Positions 12-31,700 of a DNA stretch of 64,000 bases are shown in pieces. The notes beneath the pieces are model-generated. The model did not search any database, was not told the origin of the DNA, and saw only the letters and a program-made list of their open reading frames with translations. The position numbers and the translations under genes are program-made. Positions within the stretch are counted from its first letter, which is position 1, and each line of letters begins with the position of its first letter. The stretch is from Branchiostoma floridae (lineage: Eukaryota > Chordata > Leptocardii > Amphioxiformes > Branchiostomatidae), in assembly GCF_000003815.2 (NCBI RefSeq), contig NC_049983.1, positions 11,369,491-11,433,490 on the forward strand, read 5' to 3'.

Positions 12-3000
12 GTAAGCCGAAACAGTCCAGCACGAAAACAACTTTTTAAGCAAAGTTTCAGAGATACGTATAAAGCCCTTAAAGGCGGAGAAATATTTTA
101 GCAGATTTTAAGATCTATTAAAGGCATCGGAAACATACATTTGGCATTTACGGAAGATTTCAGCGTTTGTAAATCTAACTTAATCTGTTGTGTTTCTTTA
201 CGTGAATTTTACATGTATTTTAGTATGCCGAAAAGACAACTTAAATGTCTCGAAAATGTTTTCTGTCAAAACGGACAAATACCGTTTCTCTAGATCTGTT
301 ACAAAATACATGTTAACCGGCTAAGTCAAATGTAATAAAGCTTTGTCTGGTGTTAGATAAAACATTGCGTCATCTGTTTTATACCAGTGGCAAGATTTAG
401 TCAAAACTGAAAATTATTGCGCTTTCTGGTACAAAATGTTATGTTTATACCTCAGCAAATACAAATACAATACAATACAAAGTCAAATACAATAATCTTC
501 TGTGTTTTTTTAGCTATTCCGAAAGCATTTGACGTATTCAAACTTTCTGTGCGCAAGGTTTAATTCGAACAGGGGAGAACCTCTCACGGTTAGCTTATAT
601 GCGCTCTTTTACGTTTTATGAAATGTTGCGTATACCATGGTCAATATTGACCGAAGGATGCCATATATATAATTTATTTCGAACCGTCATTTACGCAAAG
701 AAGGGAAGACCTCCCCCGTTAATATATTTGCCAAGACGTATATGAAATGTTGCGTATTTCTTTTGAACATACGACATGTTTAATCTTTGAATCCGCGCAG
801 TTTAAGCGAACTAGGGGAGACCTCCCCCGTTTAGCTTATATGTTGCCAAAACGTATATGAAATGTTGCGTATTTCTTTTGAACATACCACATGTTTAATC
901 TTTGAATCCGCGCAGTTAAAGCGAACTTAGGGAGACCTCCCCCGTTTAGCTTATATGTTGTCAAAACGTATATGAAATGTTGCGTATTTCTGTTGAACAT
1001 ACGACATGTTTAATCTTTGAATCCGCGCAGTTTAAGCGAACTAGGGGAGACCTCCCCCGTTTAGCTTATATGTTGTCAAAACGTATATGAAATGTTGCGT
1101 ATTTCTGTAAAACATACAACAAGTTTAATCTTTGAATCCGCGCAGTTTAAGCGAACTAGGGGAGACCTCCCACGTTTAGCTTATATGCTGCCAAAACGTA
1201 TATGAAATGTTGCGTATTTCTGTTGAACATACGACATGTTTAATCTTTGAATCCGCGCAGTTTAAGCGAACTAGGGGAGACCTCCCCCGTTTAGCTTATA
1301 TGTTGCCAAGACGTATATGAGATGTTGCGTATTTCTGTAAAACATACAACAAGTTTAATCTTTGAATCCACGCAGTTTAAGCGAACTAGGGGAGACCTCC
1401 CCCATTTAGCTTATATGTTGCCAAAACGTATATGAAATGTTGCGTATTTCTTTTGAACATACGACATGTTTAATCTTTGAATCCGCGCAGTTTAAGTGAA
1501 CTAGGGGAGACCTCCCCCGTTTAGCTTATATGCTGCCAAAACGTATATGAAATGTTGCGTATTTCTGTAAAACATACTTATCTAATCCGCGCAGTTTAAG
1601 CGAACTTGAGGAGACCTCCCCCGTTTAGCTTATATGTTGTCAAGACGTATATGAAATGTTGCGTATATCTGTAAACCATACAACAAGTTTAATCTTTGAA
1701 TCCGCGCAGTTTAAGCGAACTAGGGGAGACCTCCCCCGTTTAGCTTATATGCTGCCAAAACGTATATGAAATGTTGCGTATTTCTGTAAAACATACTTAT
1801 CTAATCCGCGCAGTTTAAGCGAACTTGAGGAGACCTCCCCCGTTTAGCTTATATGTTGTCAAGACGTATATGAAATGTTGCGTATTTCTGTAAACCATAC
1901 AACAAGTTTAATCTTTGAATCCGCGCAGTTTAAGCGAACTAGGGGAGACCTCCCCCGTTTAGCTTATATGCTGCCAAAACGTATATGAAATGTTGCGTAT
2001 TTCTGTTGAACATACGACATGTTTAATCTTTGAATCCGCGCAGTTTAAGCGAACTAGGGGAGACCTCCCCCGTTTAGCTTATATGTTGCCAAGACGTATA
2101 TGAGATGTTGCGTATTTCTGTAAAACATACAACAAGTTTAATCTTTGAATCCACGCAGTTTAAGCGAACTAGGGGAGACCTCCCCCATTTAGCTTATATG
2201 TTGCCAAAACGTATATGAAATGTTGCTTATTTCTTTTGAACATACGACATGTTTAATCTTTGAATCCGCGCAGTTTAAGTGAACTAGTGGGAGACCTCCC
2301 CCGCTTTAGCTTATATGCTGCCAAAACGTATATGAAATGTTGCGTATTTCTGTAAAACATACTTATCTAATCCGCGCAGTTTAAGCGAACTTGAGGAGAC
2401 CTCCCCCGTTTAGCTTATATGTTGTCAAGACGTATATGAAATGTTGCGTATTTCTGTAAACCATACAACAAGTTTAATCTTTGAATCCGCGCAGTTTAAG
2501 CGAACTAGGGGAGACCTCCCCCGTTTAGCTTATATGCTGCCAAAACGTATATGAAATGTTGCGTATTTCTGTTGAACATACGACATGTTTAATCTTTGAA
2601 TCCGCGCAGTTTAAGCGAACTAGGGGAGACCTCCCCCGTTTAGCTTATATGTTGCCAAGACGTATATGAGATGTTGCGTATTTCTGTAAAACATACAACA
2701 AGTTTAATCTTTGAATCCGCGCAGTTTAAGCGAACTAGGGGAGACCTCCCCCATTTAGCTTAAATGCTGCCAAAACGTATATGAAATGTTGCGTATTTCT
2801 GTTGAACATACGACATGTTTAATCTTTGAATCCGCGCAGTTTAAGCGAACTAGGGGAGACCTCCCCCGTTTAGCTTATATGTTGCCAAGACGTATATGAA
2901 ATGTTGCGTATTTCTGTTGAACATACGACATGTTTAATCTTTGAATCCGCGTAGCTTAAGCAAACTTGTTTTATCTATTAGCTAATACCGTCTCAAAGGT

Positions 3001-6000
3001 TTTATGAAACGTTGCCTTTTTCTGCTGAACATACGGCATGTTTGAAGCGCAGTTTATGCGAACAGGAGGAGACCCTTTCCTTTTTATTTTATACCGCATA
3101 TATGTTCTGAAATTCCAGGGTCTAAATCAGGGTGAGGCCGCCTGTTTTCTTTGTGGCAAGTTGACCCTCGAACTAAGAGACGGTAGAAATCCCGACTACT
3201 GCTATGAATATCTCCGCGACTCAACCTCTGCTTGAAGAATAAGGATGTAGTAGGTATACTTATCGCGTTTTGTGTAGTGAGTTGTGTTTTCTCTATAAAA
3301 CGGCAAGCAGTTCTTACTACAGGTAAATGTACGAAATATGTTTATTTCTTTATCTACAAGCAAGCGTCGAGAAAGAACAGTTTGTGCACACAGGCGGTGT
3401 CTTCTAGTGTTGCTCGTGTTTGTTTGGGTTTAATTTAAATATGGTGATATGCGTGGGCAGGCAAGATGTAAATTTATTCAGCGTTACTTCGTACTCGCCA
3501 TGGGGCGCAACCCTCCGTCCGTCCAAGGAGGTTGAACTTCCTTGGTCCGTCTGTGACACAGCTGTGCCATGTGATAGGATGTATCCAATGGCAGAAAAGA
3601 GTGGGGGGTTCAAATTTACGGGTCATACGTACGACAAGGAGCGGTTATTTTCCGGGCGTTCATTTTTGAATAGAAGTATTGAAGAAAGTTTGGGCCTGTT
3701 CTAGCCCGCAAGTTGTGGCCGCGACTCCGCTTTTACCGCCTAGGACCCCCGGTGACGGAATTTGACTCAAAGATACGAGGTGGCTATCATTCTGGACAAA
3801 CTGTTGTGTTGGAAATCGACACAGAATGGAAATCACGGCCCGTGTACCATCCGGATTAATAGAAGCCGAGACTGCAAGCTGAACATGTTTCGCGTTCACA
3901 GAATCCAGGACCATCCAACAACACGAGTCATATCGGCCACTACTCTAGATCTTACCGGATTCTTATTCCTGTGGTGACAAGATGGAACTGTACATGTGTG
4001 CTCTTTTTAACTTACGCCGAGACGCTTCACCCGACACTGGAAATGGGACTGTGGACTGCTGCACGGAATTGCGCAACCGTTGTGATTGTTTCAACTGCCG
4101 ACTACATCAGATTAAAAGGCCACAAATACCTAGTAGGCAGTAGTTTTTTTTTTACCCTTCCATGTAATATTTTCTCGTAATTCAATAAAATTTCAAAGTT
4201 TCATCCATTGTATTTTCTTGCTTTGAAATGTGCTAATGATTATTCTCCTAAAATGGCACTTATCCACACCTTATAATCAACTTAATGCACACGTATATGA
4301 GACGTACAGAGGGAACTTTAAACATGTCTTAAGGGTGTTTTAGTACGTATTTATGACAACTTTAAGCTGCTAAAAAGACACATATATATAGACACATTAA
4401 ATCCTCTTAATTCACACGTATATGAGACGTAAAGAGGCTTTTGATCAAATAAACGTGAAGTTTAAACATGTCTTAAGGGCGTTTTAATAGGTATTTATGG
4501 CGAATTTAAGCTACTGAAAAGGCACCTAAACACGTTATAATCCACTTAATGCACACGTATATGAGACGTAAATAGGCTTTAGATCAAATAAACGTGAAGT
4601 TTAAACATGTCTTAAGGGCGTTTTAATAAGTATTTATGTCAACTTTAAGCTGCTGAAAAGGCACTTAAACACACGTTATAATCCACTTAATGCACACGTA
4701 TATGAGACGTAAACAGGCTTTAGATCAAATAAACGTGAAGTTTAAACATGTCTTAAGGGCGTTATAATAGGTATTTATGCCAAATTTAAGCTGCTGAAAA
4801 GGCACCTAAACATACATTATAATCCACTTAATGCACACGTATATGAGACGTAAATAGGCTTTAGATCAAATATACGTGAAGTTTAAACATGTCTTAAGGG
4901 CGTTTTAATAGATATTTATGGCAACTTTAAACTGCTGAAAAGGCACCTAAACACACGTTATAATCCTCTTAATGCACACGTATATGAGACGTAAAGAGGC
5001 TTTATATCAAATAAACGTGAAGTTTAAACATGTCTTAAGGGCGTTTTAATAAGTATTTATGGCAACTTTAAGCTGCTGAATAGGCACTAAAACACACGTT
5101 ATAATCCACTTAATGCACACGTATATGAGACGTAAACAGGCTTTAGATCAAATATACGTGAAGTTTAAATATGTCTTAAGGGCGTTTTAATAGATATTTA
5201 TGGCAACTTTAAACTGCTGAAAAGGCACCTAAACACACGTTATAATCCTCTTAATGCACACGTATATGAGACGTAAAGAGGCTTTAGATCAAATAAACGT
5301 GAAGTTTAAACATGTCTTAAGGGCGTTTTGATAAGTATTTATGGCAACTTTAAGCTGCTGAATAGGCACTAAAACACACGTTATAATCCACTTAATGCAA
5401 TTGTATATGAGACGTAATGAGGCTTTAGATCAAATAAACGTGAACTTTAAACAAGTTTAAGGGGTTTAAAAATCATTTACGACATCTTTAAGCTGCTGAA
5501 AGACAACGGGAAAACCGGAAAATAAGGACTAACACGGACCTACAGAAAGACCACTTAAAGGCAATATTTACGTACTCGTATAAGTGGTGTATAGATCCGT
5601 AAAGAAGGAAAATACGTCAACATTACGCATGGTTTCAGCACGCTTAAATACCGTTTTTCGTGCCGTGATTCGGAAACATTTCTTTAGGCTTGCGTCACAT
5701 ATCCAAACCGGGGCATGGCCGGGCAACTTTCAATAACGAAAATATGACATAAAAGTCGCCAACTGCACAATACGTAAAGAGACTAGTCGTGGGTATTATT
5801 TGTGTATTGTGTATATAAAAAAGCCCGGCCGGGCCCCGGTTTGGAAATGTGACATTAGTCTCAGTCAGCGAAGGAGCAACGCAAATGATTGGATAAGAAG
5901 GGCAATATCTTTTTGCCAACACTTTGTTTAGCTTTTGCAAAACATGTCACCTTATTGAACATTATTGACATGTGACAAGTATTTACGTGTGCGATTTTGT

Positions 6001-9000
6001 TGTAAATTATCTCAAATCAGGTCTTCCAATTGTTATGTCTATTTGGTATGTTTTCTGAAAAACGGAATCAGGTGTAATAATCAATGAAGCTGTTTGTTTA
6101 ATGTTGACGTTGTGCCCCATAGGCAACGATGTCACCACTTCAGGAGGTGACACCGGTACAACGTCAGGCGGTGGGGACGTCCCGCCATCAGGAGTCCTCG
6201 CATCACCTGGTGAGAGCACAGAAGACCTCTCCGTCAAATTAAGACGAGAGGTTCCACAGTTGACCGTATTGATTTTACGTTTTTTTTGCTTGTGTGTTTC
6301 AAACTTTATGTGTGTGAAATTTGTACACATCAATGTTCAGCATAACGGCATTTTTGTAGAAACAATGGATCGGATACAATGGATGAAAGATAAGAAATTT
6401 TTCTTGGCTTAGCATGAAAGCTCACCTGTGTTAAAATCCATGTAGGACTTTATAAATATCATTCAACACGAATCAATTGCTGACCTCAAATTTTCGGTCG
6501 CACATCATCCAACCATTTTTTCTTGGCTTGTTACTTTATTCAATTCTTTTCAAGTGTGACAGAGGGAAACTTCATTACAATTCTTAAACACAGACAGCGG
6601 AGATTTCACCCACCAGGCCGCTCTAGACGAGTACGACCGCTACACCCTGCTGTGGAAGTTCGACAGTGAGACCATCACGTTCGAGGCGCAGGTGCAGACC
6701 ACGGGGTACATCGGACTCGGCTTCTCACCCAATGGGGGCATGACCGGATCTGACGTCATCATCGGATGGGTGAAAGACGGCCAGGCATACCTGACGGTAA
6801 ACTAACTGGCTTTTTTATTTCTCAAAATTATTCGCATTTTCCTTAGATTAGATCTATGATCTATGTCTTTACTTATTCTACATTTAGTAAGCCAGTCAGT
6901 CTTTATTCAAACATTTTGAAGGCTTTCAGTATTTTTCCACCAGTACAAAGATTTACAATCCATTGGTGATGTTTGTCGTGTTCATTTTATCCCTTATTGT
7001 TTAGTCAGGTATATGGGCAGTCTTTTCAGCACTAAGGCTAGCTCCTTCTCAACATAAAAGATACTATCGAACAATGGCCATTATGTCCAAAGCATGTCGT
7101 ATACAGAAGAACATTGATAGCGGCCTTTTCAGCACAATGTTGTGTTATAGGACAAGATTGCTGAGAGGTGATTTAAGCCAGGACGCTGAATTACTTTCAT
7201 GTTAATAAAAGATATCATAAAACTAGAAAGGCCGACATTTGCTTAGGAGCAAATACAGCATATTGCAATCCATCTTCATCCTGGAAAAAATCCAAAAATT
7301 CAACAATTTGAAGTAATGTTTGCTCAAAGGGAAAATGAAGTACTGTGGGCACTTGTCCTACACACCTTTATGCCGAATTTTAGGTCATTTGGTTTCAATA
7401 GGAGCCAAAAAGATACATTTTTTAGTTAAAAATGGCTAAAAATCCCAAAATAACTCATTTTATAAGTGCTCTATGAAGTAAGTGTTGATGGGGTCCTGTT
7501 GTCATATGTCCAATGCACCTCTGTACCAAATTTCAGGTCATTTGGTGTACATACAAGGGTATAGGGGCCAAAAATATACATTTTTAGTCAAAAATGACTG
7601 AAAACCCCCAAATAACGAATTTTTGAAGTGATCTATGAAGAAAGTGTCGATGAGGTCCTGTGAGCATATGTTCAATGCGCCTCTGTGCTAAATTTCAGGT
7701 CATTAGGTTTTCATACAAGGGCATAGGAGCAAAAAATAAACATTTTTAGTCAAAAATGGCCAAAAACCCTAAAATAACTCATTTTTGGAGTAAACAATGA
7801 ATAAAGCGTTGATGGGGTTCTGTGGTCATATGTCAAACGCACCTATGTACCAAATTTCAGGTCATTTGGTTTTAATACAAGGGCATAGGAGCCAACAATA
7901 TACATTTTTAGTCAAAAATGGCCAAAAACCCTCAAATAAGTCATTTTTTAAGTGATCTATAAAGAAGGTGTCGATGGTTTTCTGTGGTCATATGTCCAAT
8001 GCACCTCTGTACCAAATTTCAGGTCATTAGCTTGTAATACCAGGGCACAGGGGCCCAAAATATACATATTTTGTCTAAAAATGACCAAAAACCCTAAATA
8101 TCATAAATTTTAAGGCCTCTATCAAGAAAGTGAAAAAAAAGTCTGGGGGTATTTGCTATTTCTACCACCCTGCCAATTTTCAGCTCATTTGGCCCAAAAA
8201 TGAAAAAATTAATCCCATTTGAAGATTTGACAGGAGAAGAGACAAAGGAAAAGCAATATATTGCAATCCCATACTATGTATGGATTGCAATATAATAACT
8301 TGCTTAGCCCCCACCCATTCTATGCCTTTAGGAGATAAGTGGTATTTGTCTGAAAAAGCTTACTACTGATTGGTGATGCTTACCCATGGCACAGTGTGGC
8401 AATGATACATGATACATGCATGTACAGTCTGACTGTAAATGACACTGACATATTACACAGATTGTGTTATAAAAAGACGTAACCTTCTAAAGCATGGTGT
8501 AAAGAAAAGTGCCAGCGACCTTATGTGACATCCTGAGTACCGTGTGTCCCACAGGACCGTTACGCGGAGGGATACTTCCAGCCGCGGCTGGACGCCAGCC
8601 AGGACGTGGAGCTGCTGTCTGGATACGAGAACGGCACGCACACCGTCCTCAGGTTCCGCAGGAGGCTCCGGCCGTGCGACACCACAGAGGACAGGGAGAT
8701 CACGGTAAGGCCTAGGTCATATTTCCGAACCGGGACCTGGCTGGGCAGCTTTCGGGAACGGCAAGTATGACATAAAAGACACCAAACTACACAAGGCATA
8801 AATAGAATAGACATTGGCATTATTTTTGTATATTTTTACATGTACGTTTCTAATTTTCGTTCCCGCTAACAGCCCGACCGGGTACCCGGTTTGGAAATGT
8901 GAGGATAGCCTAAAGTTTAACTCATGATGCACTGTTTTACTGTCTTTCTGCTTTTTCAGTCTTTCTCTTCTATAAACACTTTCTGTTTATCAGCGTGGTT

Positions 9001-22748: not shown

Positions 22749-25700
22749 GTAAGTTTTTTTCCTTTACATGTAAGTATAAACAATTGTCACAGTTGTAAAG
22801 TCAATGGCCATAGACTACGTAGAATGCATTTTGAAATGAAGCTTGGATAATGTTTTGTGCTTCAAAAGCAGTGCAGATAACGGGGACTCCATCATTGCTA
22901 AAGACTGCATGGCTGTATACCTCGACAAACTTGAAATAAACCTGCCCGTGATAATATTGCAGCCCAGTCCAAGACTTACAGAATATCAATACAGATAAAG
23001 ACTCTTCTAGTCTGTATTTTTTTTTTTGTTTCTCCTGTCGATTCGACAGATGAGCAGGCAGACAGGCATTTTACCTGTAGCCTGACCTGCACATGACTTT
23101 TTATGGTGAAGGAGGTGTGTGCAATTCTTGCTCCACCCTCTCGTCTACTGGAGCACTAAGTCTCACAGGGACAGAACTGTATGACACGTGTGAGGCAGCT
23201 GTATAACACAGTTTTAACACGAACTCTGATGTCTAGGGCTGTAACTGGCCCCTCCCGGCCGGATGTTGGACGGGCTGCTATAAGCGAGATTTGATCAGGC
23301 TGAGACTCTTCGAGAAGTAGAGTAACGTTAGCCAAGTAACTGGATATGATTTTGGAAACGGTCAGACGTTTCAACTAGCTAGCATCCACTAGTTTTTGTC
23401 AGTGACACTGATGTTACAAAATCATATCGAGTTGCTTGAGTAACTGCGTGTTGGCGTATCTTATTAAGTCTGATATGCATCGATGATGAGATAGTGAGTG
23501 AGATTACCTGGATGTCCAGCCTTCGTCGATGTAGAGTAACGTTAGATTATTGGAGTGAACAGCCCGACATGTTGATGATGATGATGATGTGCGTTCTGTT
23601 GCAGTACCTGGATGCCTTGAGCAGCCTTCAGCAGCTGGTGACGTCCATGGACGTTACTTTGCAGGACCTGAAGTCTGACGTACAGGACATCAAGGCCATG
23701 TTACAACAGGGCGGCTGTACAGCGGGTGAGCAGGAAACATTCGGAAACATTTCATTACTCAACATGAAGGAGCAACACGGATGGTTGGATAAAAATAGGG
23801 TTGAGGCCAATGTCTTTTTACCAACAATTTGTTTTTGCCAAAAATGTTTTAATGTATTTCTTGCCTTGATTACAGTGGCAGGTATTGCGTGTGCGATATT
23901 TTGTAAACCATCTCAAAGCAGGGCTTCCAATCGTAATGTCTCTGTTTGTTTAATTTTGTGTACCATAGGCAATGATGTCACCACTTCCGGGGGTGACACC
24001 GGTACAACGTCAGGCGGTGGGGACGTCCCGCCATCAGGAGGGCTCGCGTCACCTGGTAAGAGCAAGGAAGATATCTGAGTCAAAATGACAAGAAGAGGGG
24101 TGAACAGTATAAGTCTTACATTTTTGTTTGTGTGTTTCAAACCTTTATTTTTTTCTATTTGCTTTTGGACAGACGGGGACAATGTGGCACTGTACTCAAG
24201 TTTTTGTAACTTATATTAACAGTGCCACATACACGGTACAGACAGAAGGTAAAGGTAGTCCTTTTACCTCCCCGACCGAAGTCAGGTACCCATTTTTACA
24301 CCTTGGTGAAGTGAGGAAGGTCGTGTAAAGTGCCTTTCCTAAACACCGGAGCGCGGCACAGTTGGGATCAAACTCAGAACCTCTAGGTTCCGAGCCGAAC
24401 GCTCTACCAGTTACGCCACGCCCGACGCCACAAAAGACCTTTATGTGTGTAAACTGTGAAATGTACATGTACTATCGGACTTATTTCACTATTGTCTCAT
24501 TTTGTACAGACAATTATGGGAGATACTAATAAAAGATATTGGCTTGTTACTTATTCAAATCATCTAGGGTGTAATATAACGCCAAGTCACTCGTTCTTTT
24601 CAAGTGTGACAGAAGAAAACTTCATTCCAATTCTTAAACACAGACAGCGGAGATTTCACCCACCAGGCCGCTCTAGACGAGTACGACCGCTACACCCTGC
24701 TGTGGAAGTTTGACAGTGAGACCATCACGTTCGAGGCGCAGGTGCAGACCACGGGGTACATCGGACTCGGCTTCTCACCCAATGGGGGCATGACCGGATC
24801 TGACGTCATCATCGGATGGGTCAAGGACGGCCAGGCATACCTGACGGTAAACTGACGTTTTTTTCTCAAAATCATTCACATTTTCCTTTTGTAGATTAGA
24901 TCTATGTCTTACTTTACACTTAGTAAGCCAGTGAGCCTTTATTCAAACATTTCGAAGGCTCAGTATTTTTCTACCGGTACAAAGACAATCTATCGGTGAT
25001 GTTTGTCGTGTGAATTTTATCCTTTAGTAATTAGTCAGGCATATGGACAGTCTTTTCAGCACTAAGGCTAGGAAGGTGCTCCTTCTCAACACACAAGGAA
25101 AATGCTATGATACTGTCGAACAATGGTTCGTATTTCCAAAGCATGTTGTATACAGAAGAACATTGATAGCGCCCTTTTCAGCACAATGACTAAGGTGTTA
25201 TAGGACATGTTCGCGGAGAGGTGCTGAATTACTTTCATGTCAATAAGAAATAAAAAATATCAGGTTTTCTGAAATCCGGCATTTATCTACAAAAACTTAA
25301 TATTGATTGGTGACGCTTATCCATGGTACAGCAACTTGGATAAGACGTAACTTGCAATTGGTGTAAAGACGACAGCAACCATGTGACCGTGTTTCCCGCA
25401 GGACCGTTACGCGGAGGGATATTTCCAGCCGCGGCTGGACGCCAGCCAGGACGTGGAGCTGCTGTCTGGGTACGAGAACGGCACGCACACCGTCCTCAGG
25501 TTCCGCAGGAGGCTCCGGCCGTGCGATACCACAGACGACAGGGAGATCACGGTAAAGTTACCTTTTTTATTATTATATACTATTTCTAATTTCTAAAAAT
25601 CTTTTTAGTCTTTCTCCTCTGTCTCTATAAACACTTTCTGCTTCATCTGCGTCGTCCATCGTGCACGAGACTGAGAAGTAACTGAGATTATAAGTGAGTA

Positions 25701-28700
25701 GTAAGATATGACTCTTTCCTTTATTTCAAATAATAGTTCTTTCCTTTATTTCAAATTTGTAAGTAATGTAATGTTACAAACGTTTGGGCGTTTGGTGAAT
25801 TTGCACTCATGAAATGTAACTTTTTTTCTTTAAATCGTCATGGTTCACATCTATTCTTTCTTGTATGCAGAAACCCCTTAGCCCACAAGGCGTTACGCAC
25901 ATGTACACATTCTTGAGTAAAGCTTAGTTCACTCAAAAGATACAAGTATTTACATGGATCAAACATGTCTTTCCGAGCAAACTCTTGCTTCTGTTGACTT
26001 AGCAGAATATGACTTTCCTTTCTTCCGTTGCTCTCACGTGCTTTGCTATTGAAACAACAGTCTGCTTTAACTAGGTTAGAGGTTAGAGCGGTAAATTGTA
26101 TCGCTGTTCCGTGGATATTTACTGTCAAAACAAGTATTTGCGCAAAAGCCTCTGTCGTATTGCATAATTATACATGGAATTCCCTCCTTCCTTCCTTCCT
26201 TCCTTCCTTCCGATGTTCTTCCGATGTTCCGATGTACATTGAAACACCGACTTTCCGGCAGTTAAACTCACCAGCTTGTTCGTCGAATATTGACTGCATT
26301 TAGAAACTAGAGTTCCACGAACACATACCTTTGCCAAATAAACCAGGTTTGTAATGTAGAATGATGTCTGTAGACAAATGCGTTACTCATTTCATTTTCT
26401 TCATAATTATATGCTTGGAGTTGGTTCATAAAATTTCGGCATTGATTATGCAAATTAGATCCCAAGTTACAAGTAATTGATATCAAATTGTGTCAAGCAT
26501 AACTTAAGCTATCAGCATACCAAAAATCATGATGATCCTTTGATCCATTCTTGACTTATTCTCTTTCAAAGTCTTTAGATACACCTCTTACTCTCTTCCC
26601 TCTTTCTCAGTTACATATGTGACAACTTTCATGAAAGTACTATAATGGAATGCAGTGGATTTATAAACTTTTCCTCATCAATTATGCAAATTAGCTGTTA
26701 ATTTGCATAATAAGTAAATTAACAGCTAATTCGCATAATAAGTATCACATTATATAAGTCTTCACTTAGGCTATCTACATGCCAAAAATCATGACGATCC
26801 GTCAACACGTTCATATTTTCTCATTAATTATGCAAATGAGATCATCATTTGCATGATAAATATGTATTGACATTTCTCTCTTTCTCAGCTACATATGTGA
26901 CAAGTTTTAAAGTCCTATCATGGAACGTAGTGAATTTATAAAATATCCTCATTAATTATGCAAATTAGTTGTTGATTTGTATAATTGGTATCTCATTATG
27001 TTTGTCTTCACTAACGCTACCTGCATACCAAAAAACATGATGATCCGTCAACATCTTCATATTTTCTCATTAATTATGCAAATGAGATCATCATTTGCAT
27101 GATAAATATGTATTGACATACTTTCTTTCTCAGCTACATATGTGACAAGTTTGAAAGTCCTATCATGGAATGCAGTGGATTTATAAATTTTCCTCATTAA
27201 TTATGCAAATTAGCTGTTGATTTGCATAATTAGTATACCATTATGTAAGTCATCACTCATTCTATCTACATACCAAAAATAATGACGATCTGTCAACACG
27301 TTGTAGAGTTATTCTCGTCCAAAGTTTGAAAGGAAACCGGCGCCTGCAGTTCCAAAAAAGCCGCTAGGGGGCTCAAACTCACAGCACTTACTCTCTGCCT
27401 TGAGGGCTATCTACCACTCAAAAATCATGATCACAGCATGTCCAGAACAGGAGATATCAAAAATTGAGGTTCTGCTGCAGTACCTTAGCAAGCCGCTAGG
27501 GGGCCCATTATCGAACTTGACCTTCGTTTTCCCGACCCCTACCCACCTACCAAATATCATCGGGATCCATCCAAGGCTTCTCGAGTTATGCTGTTAACAG
27601 ACAGACACACAGACACACAGACTCACAAGCCCAAAACATAACCTTAGCCATTCTGGCAAAGGTAATCATAACATTCAGACATGATGTGAACCATAGGAAA
27701 CTCATTAGGATCAATATTCGATAGTTGTTAAGGACCTGGCCAACAAACCACGTGGCACAGGCAACCACATCCAGCCACAAGCCACGTTAAAACAGTCCCG
27801 TACAAGTGAACATAGCAAAGACCCTCTTGTTTGCAGAAACCACCACCAGTCACCAACCAATTTTTCCTCAGTCCATTGAGCGGTTGTTGAGACCAGATAA
27901 GTGCAGTCTGTGCTTGTACAAAACGTGCTCATAACATTAATAACCACATTTTAATAACTTTTTAGTCTGTGACCAGAACCTCTTTACGCGTTCGCAGCTG
28001 TATCTATATGTTCCCATTGTCTGAATTCTATGTCGTTTGGCAGGTCCTCTGTACTGAGGTTGACGATGATGCACGTGATTTTTTTTGCGGCAGGTGGTTT
28101 TATTATGGATGTTATAAAAATAGCACCCCTACAATTTGTTCGTCTTGCGGTGTTTTGGTCCAGATCCTCTGCATGTGGGTCATGATGTAATCGGATATTG
28201 TCAAGCAGATGCGTGGTTTTATCTGATCGTCAAAGTTATTCGCGTTCGCACCTGTAACTGCATGTTCCCGTTGTCGCATACGTACGTTAATTGGCAGGTC
28301 TTCTGCACTGAGGTTTACGATGATGTACGTTGTTTTTTTTCCGTCGCTGCTGGTTTTATTATGGATGTATAAAAATATCACCCCTACAATTTCTTCGTCT
28401 TGTGGTGTTTTGGTCCAGGGCCGCTTTGTTTGAGCCTTGCCATAATAAAATATAGCAAGCAGATGCGTGGTTTTATCTGATCGTCAAAGTTATTCGCGTT
28501 CGCATCTGTATTTGCATGTTCCCGTTGTCGCATACGCAGGGGTGCCTAAGCATTTGCACGAACCCTATGAAATTCGTACGAATATTATGTGATACACACG
28601 AATCACTATGCGAAAACGCACGAATATTATGAAATTCGCACGAATCACTATGCGAAATCGTACGAATTTTATGAAATTCGCACGAATCACTATGTGACAC

Positions 28701-31700
28701 ACACGAGCCTTATGTGATTTGCACGATCCTTATGCAAAAACGGCGGCCGTGTTGGAGGCATGATTTTGTGCGTGGAGACCCGAGATATAGATATTGCAAG
28801 GCATGGAATGGACATTGACCGTCGCAAAGATGTATCTGATAGCCTGTGAGCTACTGTTTAGCTTCAATTCGGCGTGTTACATCGTATTTTCAGTCACCGA
28901 AGCGGCGAAGCCGCCATCTTGAAAATCCCGCTCCGTTTGTCACGTGACCCCGCCAGTGGTTGCGCAATTTCGCATAAGGATCGTGCAAATCACATAAGGC
29001 TCGTGTGTGTCACATAGTGATTCGTGCGAATTTCATAATATTCGTACGATTTCGCATAGTGATTCGTGCGAATTTCATAATATTCGTGCGTTTTCGCATA
29101 GTGATTCGTGTGTATCACATAATATTCGTACGAATTTCATAGGGTTCGTGCAAATGCTTAGGCACCCCTGATACGTACGTTGTTTGGCAGGTCCTCTGCA
29201 CTGAGGTTGACGATGATGCACGTTTTTTTTCTTTTTCGCGGCAGCTGGTTTTACTATGGATGTATAAAAATATCGCCCCTACAATTTGTTCGTCTTACGG
29301 TGTTTTGGTCCAGGGCCGCTTTGACAGTTGTTCACCTTTCTCGAAATATGTTGGATTATGATTTTATGATTTATCTCATCTGAGCTGGTAAAATACTGGT
29401 TAACTTTGTCCAATCACATGAACGATAGACTCCGCTAAAGCCAATCAAATCCAAGTTCTCCCCAATGTCAGCGAAACAGCTGCATTTTCCTTTTTGGTCA
29501 CTAGGGGTCGCTGTGACACCGTGAGCAATTCGAATGAGACCTTGATGGGGAAACGGCTTCTATGAGTCATTTTATGGTTTTAGACCCCCGGAACTCTGTT
29601 GGCAAAGTTGGTGACTAGCGAGGTATCTACTCTATGCTAGCCCTGATTTGCTCCTCTGCCGAATTCGTAGCTGGATTTGGGTCAATATTGTCATGGGTAT
29701 GGCAGTGGCGGAGGGGGAACCATGTTAGATAACCGTGTTGACTGTTGCAAGGTTTTCTTACTTACTTCTATGGTCGCCATGGCTACATGTATAAAGTGTT
29801 TCCTGCATTCATTCATTGTCCACATATAGCAAATATACCTGTCCTTGGTGCTGAACACCATCCACATCATTCAGTGTGCGCTTATAATTTCAGTTTTGAT
29901 GGGTTATTTTCCCTGGTTTCAGCTTGAGTATGGGTGTAACAAGTTTGTGACATTTTCCCCATTATCAGCTGGAGGGTACAAAAATGTCTAATTTTGTATA
30001 GCTACTCACATAATGTACCTAAGTCACCCAGTCCTAATGCATATCTCCGGCCCCACTCCAGTCCAGCAGATAGAACCAGTAGGCAGTCATGTGATAGCCT
30101 TCCCGTGAGTCCATGGTGAAGCAGCCCGGGAGGGGAGAGTCCATCATGGGGTCGGTGTTGGGGCGTGGGGACACGTACGTCCCGTTCCACGGGATCTGAC
30201 AGGTCGGCGGGGAGGCGTCCAGGACCACGGAGGAATGGAACGTCAAATCCACGGACTATGAAAAAAATGCATCCATGATTATCATGTGAATGTTCATCTG
30301 AGTTGGGAAAATACATATAGAAGTGATGAACTATTCTCCAACTAAAAATAACTGCACCCAAAGGAATTTTCGAGTGACTCCCTCAGTCTTCTCTGGGACA
30401 GGTGGCGATATCGACTTCCGACATTTGACCCATTGCTGACGTCACATGTACAGAAAGTCATGTGTCCACAACGATTGGGTCAGACAACTGAGGATGACCG
30501 TGCGAAAAGTCCGATTTTTTTCTTTGCTGGAGAGCAGTTTATCTCTATATAATGTAACCATAATACGTATCAATTCAGAAACCTTAAAGCCAGGGCATTT
30601 AACATTTTCTGTACCTGATTTTTCGTTATTTTCTCAACATTTAAGGTTTACGCGCGGTTCCTAGCTGAATACCATATCCTTTTTTAATTCTATATAATAT
30701 TATGCCTTACTCTCACACTCCTTTCACTCAATAAGTTACTCCCTCACCATCTTATTTGGCCCCTGGCCGGGAGCGACAGTGAAGACCAGCGGCCCGTGGT
30801 CACATGACCCAACCATTATCTGCTCCGTTTCGTTGTACTTCTTGTCAGGGATCAACCTGCTTGTAGCTATGGTAGCAATGCACCTGGCAGCGAGTAGAAG
30901 ACATTGATAGATAATCGTAACATACAGCTGATACAGGGAGTAACTGTCGTGTATCTTTGTATGTGATTGAAAATGTAATGCGTTTTGTCACAATTATTAA
31001 ATGGCCTTGCTAAGTAAAGGTAGACTTACAATGTTCAATAACCTAAAGTCGTGGATTATTTGCCTACAAGGTCAAAAATACTTTGGTCAAACTTTAGTAC
31101 AATCTGTGACGGCGAAGGGCAAGGCAAGGGTAATGGCGATAAACTTCAGCTGCAGTTCTCTTAGTATGCAAGTATAGGCGACATTACATGCATTTTAGTG
31201 CTGAGAAATTACAATCGCAATGTTGAATCATAGGAGACATCTACTGTCGGGAATCGTGGGTGTTTCTCTTAACCCCAATGCTCAGGGCCACCTGCACCTA
31301 CTCTTTTATAAACCTTATGCTAAGCTCCTTACCCATCTGTGTCCCACGTGTCATTCACTGTGACAATGAACCTGACCCAACTGACTTTCTCTGGCGAAAA
31401 TTCGGTGTCGTCACCGAACACCAACAGGTGTGAAGCCGTCAGAAACAGCAACACCGGCACAAGGCCCGACAACCACGCCATCTTGTTTTCTTGCACTTTG
31501 ACGGAAAACACAGACAGACGCACTTTGTACAGTGTGTAATCAATATATCAAACTTTATAATTCATATGTTAAATGTATTGCCGAGAAGCTCAATGTTGAA
31601 ATTACGTGATGTGTAGTATACCAAAAAGATGTATCATTGTATAATTATGCTTCCAAATTAGCTATCACACTAGGGATCTTTCATCATCTAGGGATCTTTG

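Follow-up and report, generated by a model that had tools for sequence, protein, structure and literature searches.

DNA transposons with internal tandem arrays are already known, the closest described cases being CACTA-like elements of Chenopodium, Galileo, and Tetris. The terminal motif of CACTA (En/Spm) elements is CACTA, and some CACTA-like elements of C. quinoa (Jozin, Chenopodium) carry a 171-bp satellite array near the 3' end (PMC8978399). In Drosophila, tandem repeats inside the ends of Galileo (P superfamily) hold extra sites for the THAP domain of the transposase (PMC3688188), and Tetris, a foldback element of Drosophila virilis, is non-autonomous, its autonomous partner not having been found (PMC4079207). 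Here, we describe an element of 5641 bp in amphioxus (Branchiostoma floridae) that fills most of an intron near the start of a 64,000-nucleotide stretch, C5:11369491-11433490 (hereafter, the window). The element is very probably a cut-and-paste DNA transposon of the non-autonomous type and belongs to a family with at least several dozen members. This reading rests on its short inverted ends, the duplication of 3 bp at the target, the empty site, the dispersed copies, and a core in which no transposase was recognized.

Copy-versus-copy alignment revealed two tandem gene copies in the window, copy A (1 to ∼21.5 kb) and copy B (∼23.7 to 40.4 kb). Both contain a DOMON-domain exon, and they are ∼70 to 85% alike in most aligned blocks, exons included. 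The exon end CTGTACAGCGG occurs in both copies; it is followed by GTGAGC...GAAAC-ATT-CGG in copy B and by GTAAGC...GAAAC-AGT-(element)-ATT-CGG in copy A, where the element occupies positions 27 to 5667. The insert is thus bordered by two 3-bp target copies, of which the left one differs by a single base. The original prediction, made from the letters of the window, had read the tract as a block inserted in an intron for which copy B supplies the empty site, and this is confirmed by introns of 243 bp (copy B) and 6111 bp (copy A) whose flanks align. It had placed the borders at 28 and 5665; the insertion holds, and the exact coordinates shift to 27 and 5667. The 115-bp and 141-bp arrays that it had seen at opposite sides of a non-repetitive core were recovered by Tandem Repeats Finder at 702-2966 and 4313-5501. 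The features are as follows.

12..6122, plus strand: intron of gene copy A that hosts the element, 6111 bp, GT..AG; its first 15 bases precede the element
24..26, plus strand: left target-site copy, which reads AGT where the empty site and the right copy have ATT, from flank comparison with copy B
27..5667, plus strand: whole element, 5641 bp, from aligned family ends and the empty site in copy B
27..38, plus strand: left terminal repeat, CCAGCACGAAAA (family CACAGCACGAAAA), from alignment with the family ends
39..560, plus strand: left unique stretch, matched in 19/20 fetched copies, L009 to L028 (in part in L015; not in L012); TTTAAGC and ACGTATA each occur once within the outermost 100 bp on this side of the element
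561..2966, plus strand: left array, a degenerate lead-in followed by 20.0 copies of the 115-bp unit (702-2966; Tandem Repeats Finder)
2967..4312, plus strand: non-repetitive core, with no Pfam match in a Pfam scan and no clear coding signal in a substitution analysis
4313..5501, plus strand: right array, 8.4 copies of the 141-bp unit (Tandem Repeats Finder)
5502..5654, plus strand: right unique stretch, matched in 20/20 fetched copies (in part in L021)
5655..5667, minus strand: right terminal repeat, CACGGCACGAAAA on the minus strand, from alignment with the family ends
5668..5670, plus strand: right target-site copy, ATT, from flank comparison with copy B
23726..23968, plus strand: counterpart intron of gene copy B, the empty site, 243 bp, GT..AG; ATT at 23739-23741

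Together, the two arrays account for 3454 of the 5641 bp, about three fifths of the element. The family ends read CACAGCACGAAAA...TTTTCGTGCCGTG and form a 13-bp terminal inverted repeat, CAC[A/G]GCACGAAAA; the left tip of the window copy, CCAGCACG, is most simply explained by the loss of one base there. Copy B has no such insert, and most aligned blocks of the two gene copies are ∼70 to 85% alike; from this we infer that the element arrived after the gene had been duplicated. By landing in gene copy A, it lengthened the intron from 243 bp to 6.1 kb.

The genome searched comprised 513 Mb in 431 contigs. With up to 2 mismatches allowed, the left end had 141 matches and the right end 142, compared with 0 for the controls; 100 matches of each were listed. 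A listed right partner lay within 10 kb and in the correct orientation for 74 of the 100 listed left ends, so the two ends do occur together elsewhere, the opposite of what had been named as grounds for rejecting a transposon. The spans of these pairs ranged from 2471 to 6711 bp (median, 4280 bp). The core (3090-4260) gave 43 scored matches at 92 to 100% identity (376 candidate places, 40 scored). We fetched 10 kb at each of 20 core loci (L009 to L028), the best scoring besides the window's own, so the sample leans young. A left-end match was present in 19 of these copies (partial in L015), the exception being L012, which has a gap in its left-array region, and a right-end match was present in all 20 (partial in L021).

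L012 and L013 were left out of the target-duplication test because of gaps. Among the 18 copies with both canonical ends readable, 17 showed an exact 3-bp target duplication; in the same copies, duplications matched in 0/18 cases at 2 or 4 to 8 bp and in 6 at 1 bp, and mispaired flanks matched at 3 bp in 12/306 comparisons. The 17 exact targets follow no fixed motif (ATA, CTA, TAT, TAA, GAA, TGT, GTT, CAT, AGG, AAT, AAG, and CCA). Two points weigh against a mobile element: one of the 18 copies, L009, lacks a target duplication, and the empty site, which has one target copy and was seen at one locus only (gene copy B), belongs to a paralogue rather than to an allele. Taken together, ends paired at dozens of loci and a common 3-bp target duplication bear out the original prediction of a transposable element with long subterminal minisatellites. 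The genome-wide check that it had proposed, for common ends, a common target-site length, and a variable number of array units, returned all three.

These data also bear on two readings of the tract as something else. Amphioxus genes carry unstable minisatellites of duplicated exon-intron boundaries, the "mirages" (PMC3087553), and two minisatellites grown in place in that way would need no transposon. We give this virtually no credence, since dozens of loci, spread over many contigs, have the same core and ends, and those tested show target duplications; the idea was also dropped on the published description of mirages (PMC3087553). A foldback or Mutator-like element of the Tetris kind is likewise highly improbable. 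Variable tandem arrays inside the ends and a lack of apparent coding capacity fit it (PMC4079207), but it is contradicted by a duplication of 3 bp instead of the 8 to 10 bp of Tetris, and by a 13-bp terminal repeat with two arrays of different sequence instead of arrays within long inverted repeats.

Pairwise identity among the 20 cores compared was 96.4 to 99.9%. The window core is 99.3 to 99.6% identical to those of L009, L010, L011, and L013 and 96.9 to 97.4% identical to those of the remaining 15 in the comparison. The left end GCACGAAAACAACTATTTAAGC marks an older subfamily, which accounts for 16 of the left-end matches listed. Its left part is 80 to 84% identical in the four members read, and these relatives keep the same plan where read through; L032, a complete copy of this subfamily, has the target GGG/GGG.

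One of the fetched copies is a close neighbor of the window element. L013 (C5:11362563 to about 11367083) lies ∼2.4 kb upstream in the opposite orientation, the two left ends facing each other with runs of N between them. Its core is the closest to that of the window copy (99.6%), and no other element among the 20 has unit variants N and O; fewer variants are in common in the right array. The pair suggests a local jump. Separately, L009, L025, and L026 contain nested insertions of ∼1753, 2137, and 2525 bp, and these three copies are among those with the longest spans; the nested insertion in L009 is flanked by TATCCA on both sides.

The arrays themselves travel with the ends. A 29-bp array motif had 638 matches in the genome (control, 0), and the 100 listed matches fell into 23 clusters on C1 to C4. 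A listed family end lay within 6 kb of 21 of the 23 clusters (both ends in 13; none near two), and the arrays thus do not occur mostly without the ends, as the original prediction had warned they might. Both arrays are present in all 20 elements that were split into units and in the older or degenerate copies L030, L032, L033, L034, and L035; in L029 and L031, only the left array is seen before the family match ends. Runs of identical unit variants recur in elements on different chromosomes, and the nearest relative of a unit, ties included, lies in another element for 164/179 of the 115-bp units and 109/111 of the 141-bp units. Because runs of unit variants are common to dispersed copies and the nearest units lie mostly in other elements, we conclude that the arrays were copied along with the element and did not grow anew at each locus. 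The two arrays would then be long-standing components of the element that are carried over in full with every jump and gain or lose blocks of units afterward. Repeated blocks in the window copy and in L018 look like such later gains. The family shows how ready-made minisatellites can be distributed over a genome and placed within genes, and its near-identical copies with common unit orders let minisatellite turnover be followed from a known starting state.

Whether the arrays contribute to transposition is a separate matter from the transposon verdict. That they are passive passengers, grown once by slippage or unequal exchange in an ancestral transposon and playing no part in transposition, has about an even chance of being right. 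Unit number varies widely among the 20 elements (5 to 18 intact 115-bp units and 4 to 8 intact 141-bp units, as counted in the assembly, where repeats may have collapsed), and copies differing in unit number have very similar cores. The units also lack a clear protected block (mean, 0.96 and 0.95 per position). Against passive carriage stand the retention of both arrays in 20/20 elements and in the older or degenerate copies L030 and L032 to L035, and hexamers that the units have in common with both ends, the full motifs being absent from the window core.

Four such hexamers, parts of TTTAAGC and ACGTATA, are found in both kinds of unit (115 and 141 bp) as well as in the terminal 100 bp at either end, a count equaled in 0/1000 shuffles (mean, 0.18). 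In the window copy, TTTAAGC occurs 17 times in the left array, 7 times in the right array, once at each end, and nowhere in the core. For ACGTATA, the counts are 20 in the left array, 10 in the right array, and 1 at the left end, again with none in the core. The likeliest role of the arrays, if they have any, would be that of multiplied subterminal binding sites, given these motifs in both units and near both ends. Such a pattern is what one would expect of multiplied sites, and the Galileo repeats do bind the THAP domain of the transposase (PMC3688188). Several observations count against such a role. The right end lacks a complete ACGTATA, and TTTAAGC is replaced there by TTTAAGG in most of the fetched copies that do not belong to the subfamily of the window element. 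When units and ends were compared in 12 local alignments against 300 shuffles, one beat all shuffles, two were matched by 4/300, and the other nine were ordinary (45 to 208 of 300). Within the units, conservation of the shared motifs is not visibly higher than that of the remaining positions, and the motif test was made after the motifs had been noticed in the sequence. On balance, a binding-site role, argued from sequence motifs, receives about a third of our confidence. A more specific proposal is that the two end-specific arrays act as landing platforms, unit number tuning the capture of each end by a borrowed transposase; we consider this rather doubtful. If true, it would mean that a parasite of another parasite has an asymmetric form of synapsis tuned by copy number, and if the arrays do bind transposase, the family offers a natural titration of binding-site number against mobility.

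The core gave little indication of coding capacity. Pfam matched 0/7 reading frames of the 20-copy core consensus and 0/2 frames of L037, and the core contains frame-breaking indels. In four frames, the observed/expected ratios of amino-acid-changing to silent changes were 2.36/3.10, 1.55/2.82, 2.86/2.89, and 4.6/2.63 (27 to 37 changes each). A coding core was rejected for lack of a clear signal in these four frames, with weak constraint possible on the first two.

Odd copies were read for an autonomous partner. Three of them have the variant left end but no right partner among the listed ends (L029 to L031), and a fourth, L032, has one; three others are right ends that lack a listed left partner (L033 to L035), and the last two are the middles of the two long end pairs that gave no core match (L036 and L037). 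L030 and L032 to L037 contain arrays and core as far as read. In the older copies L029 and L031, the family match reaches part of the core and is then reduced to short scraps within 10 kb, which may reflect truncation, nested insertion, or a longer relative. Nine open frames of these two copies had no Pfam match over the cutoff, with one weak GON match (E, 0.035). The left array of L030, an older copy, holds an open frame of 283 amino acids (L030:1751-2599) that by eye resembles a piece of a reverse transcriptase; it probably marks a nested retroelement.

A CACTA-type source was sought through Transposase_21, which had 28 matches in the genome, some in open frames of 760 to 956 amino acids, and none in 14 control genomes. 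The pattern CACAGCACGAAAAD had 25 matches compared with 4 in the control, and those on contigs with Transposase_21 were included in the proximity check. No CACTA source bearing this family's ends was found: there is no Transposase_21 match near any of the ends listed (100 of 141 left and 100 of 142 right ends). Three Transposase_21 loci (C5:21353424, C13:1223407, and C19:6373362) have identical scores and 884-amino-acid open frames and are possibly recently active CACTA elements. Because its core is without a Pfam match or clear coding signal and no Transposase_21 match lies near a listed end, the family appears to be non-autonomous.

In the mechanism that we propose, a transposase made elsewhere in the genome would recognize the 13-bp ends and insert the element through a 3-bp staggered cut, the likeliest source of the enzyme being a CACTA (En/Spm)-like element. 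Two results weigh against that source. All 28 Transposase_21 matches are more than 10 kb away from any listed end, the two nearest at 17.3 and 18.8 kb, and the fourth end base is A or G here (CACAG and CACGG) versus T in CACTA. It is unlikely that the transposase belongs to another superfamily with 3-bp duplications, such as PIF/Harbinger, which also has terminal inverted repeats and 3-bp duplications (PMC2213677). Family ends that are not CACTA/CACTG would suit such an origin. The target preference of Harbinger is TWA, however, and only 2 of the 17 exact targets are TWA, with no fixed target motif overall. CAC-starting ends and subterminal repeats also fit CACTA better, no Harbinger transposase search having been made. 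The target length, the CAC at the ends, and the repeats inside them suggest that the element most likely works like CACTA, yet we do not file it as a CACTA element, because its ends do not carry the named CACTA motif and no source was found.

Two other repeats in the window deserve mention. A near-perfect inverted repeat at 28537-29170 (203-bp arms, 99%; ends CAGGGGTGCCTAAGC; internal 20/42-bp repeats) is inserted in a 254-bp tandem repeat of copy B with ATACG on both flanks, and resembles a foldback or hAT-type miniature element. In copy A, a 162-bp array of 4.3 copies occupies 7398-8098; at the corresponding place in copy B, the aligned blocks lie ∼1.2 kb closer together, and this is possibly a second inserted array.

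Comparison with the described systems places the element near several of them. Like Tetris, it is non-autonomous, has a variable number of tandem units inside its ends (∼220 bp in Tetris), and has no partner found, but the target duplications of 8 to 10 bp and the long inverted repeats that house the Tetris arrays are both absent here, and Tetris units also form separate satellite arrays, whereas 21/23 listed array clusters here are near a listed end (PMC4079207). Galileo likewise has tandem repeats inside its ends; these sit in long terminal inverted repeats, whereas the left and right arrays differ here, and some Galileo copies have non-functional transposase coding regions, whereas none was recognized here (PMC3688188). 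Amphioxus mirages are also unstable minisatellite-type arrays at introns, but they are exon-intron boundaries duplicated in place, whereas the window element is mobile (PMC3087553). The available text of a paper on amphioxus transposons and opsins does not mention CACTA or EnSpm (PMC5802833). In searches limited to open-licence papers, we found no precedent for two different arrays, one per side, kept across subfamilies; a repeat-database entry for the family may well exist. The likeness to CACTA and Jozin lies in ends that start with CAC, a 3-bp target duplication, and, less clearly, subterminal repeats, and the differences lie in the fourth end base, in the absence of a recognized transposase gene, and in the presence of two different arrays, one per side (PMC8978399). 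Where CACTA has closely spaced short subterminal repeats over several hundred bases, the amphioxus element has two long direct arrays and motifs shared with its ends.

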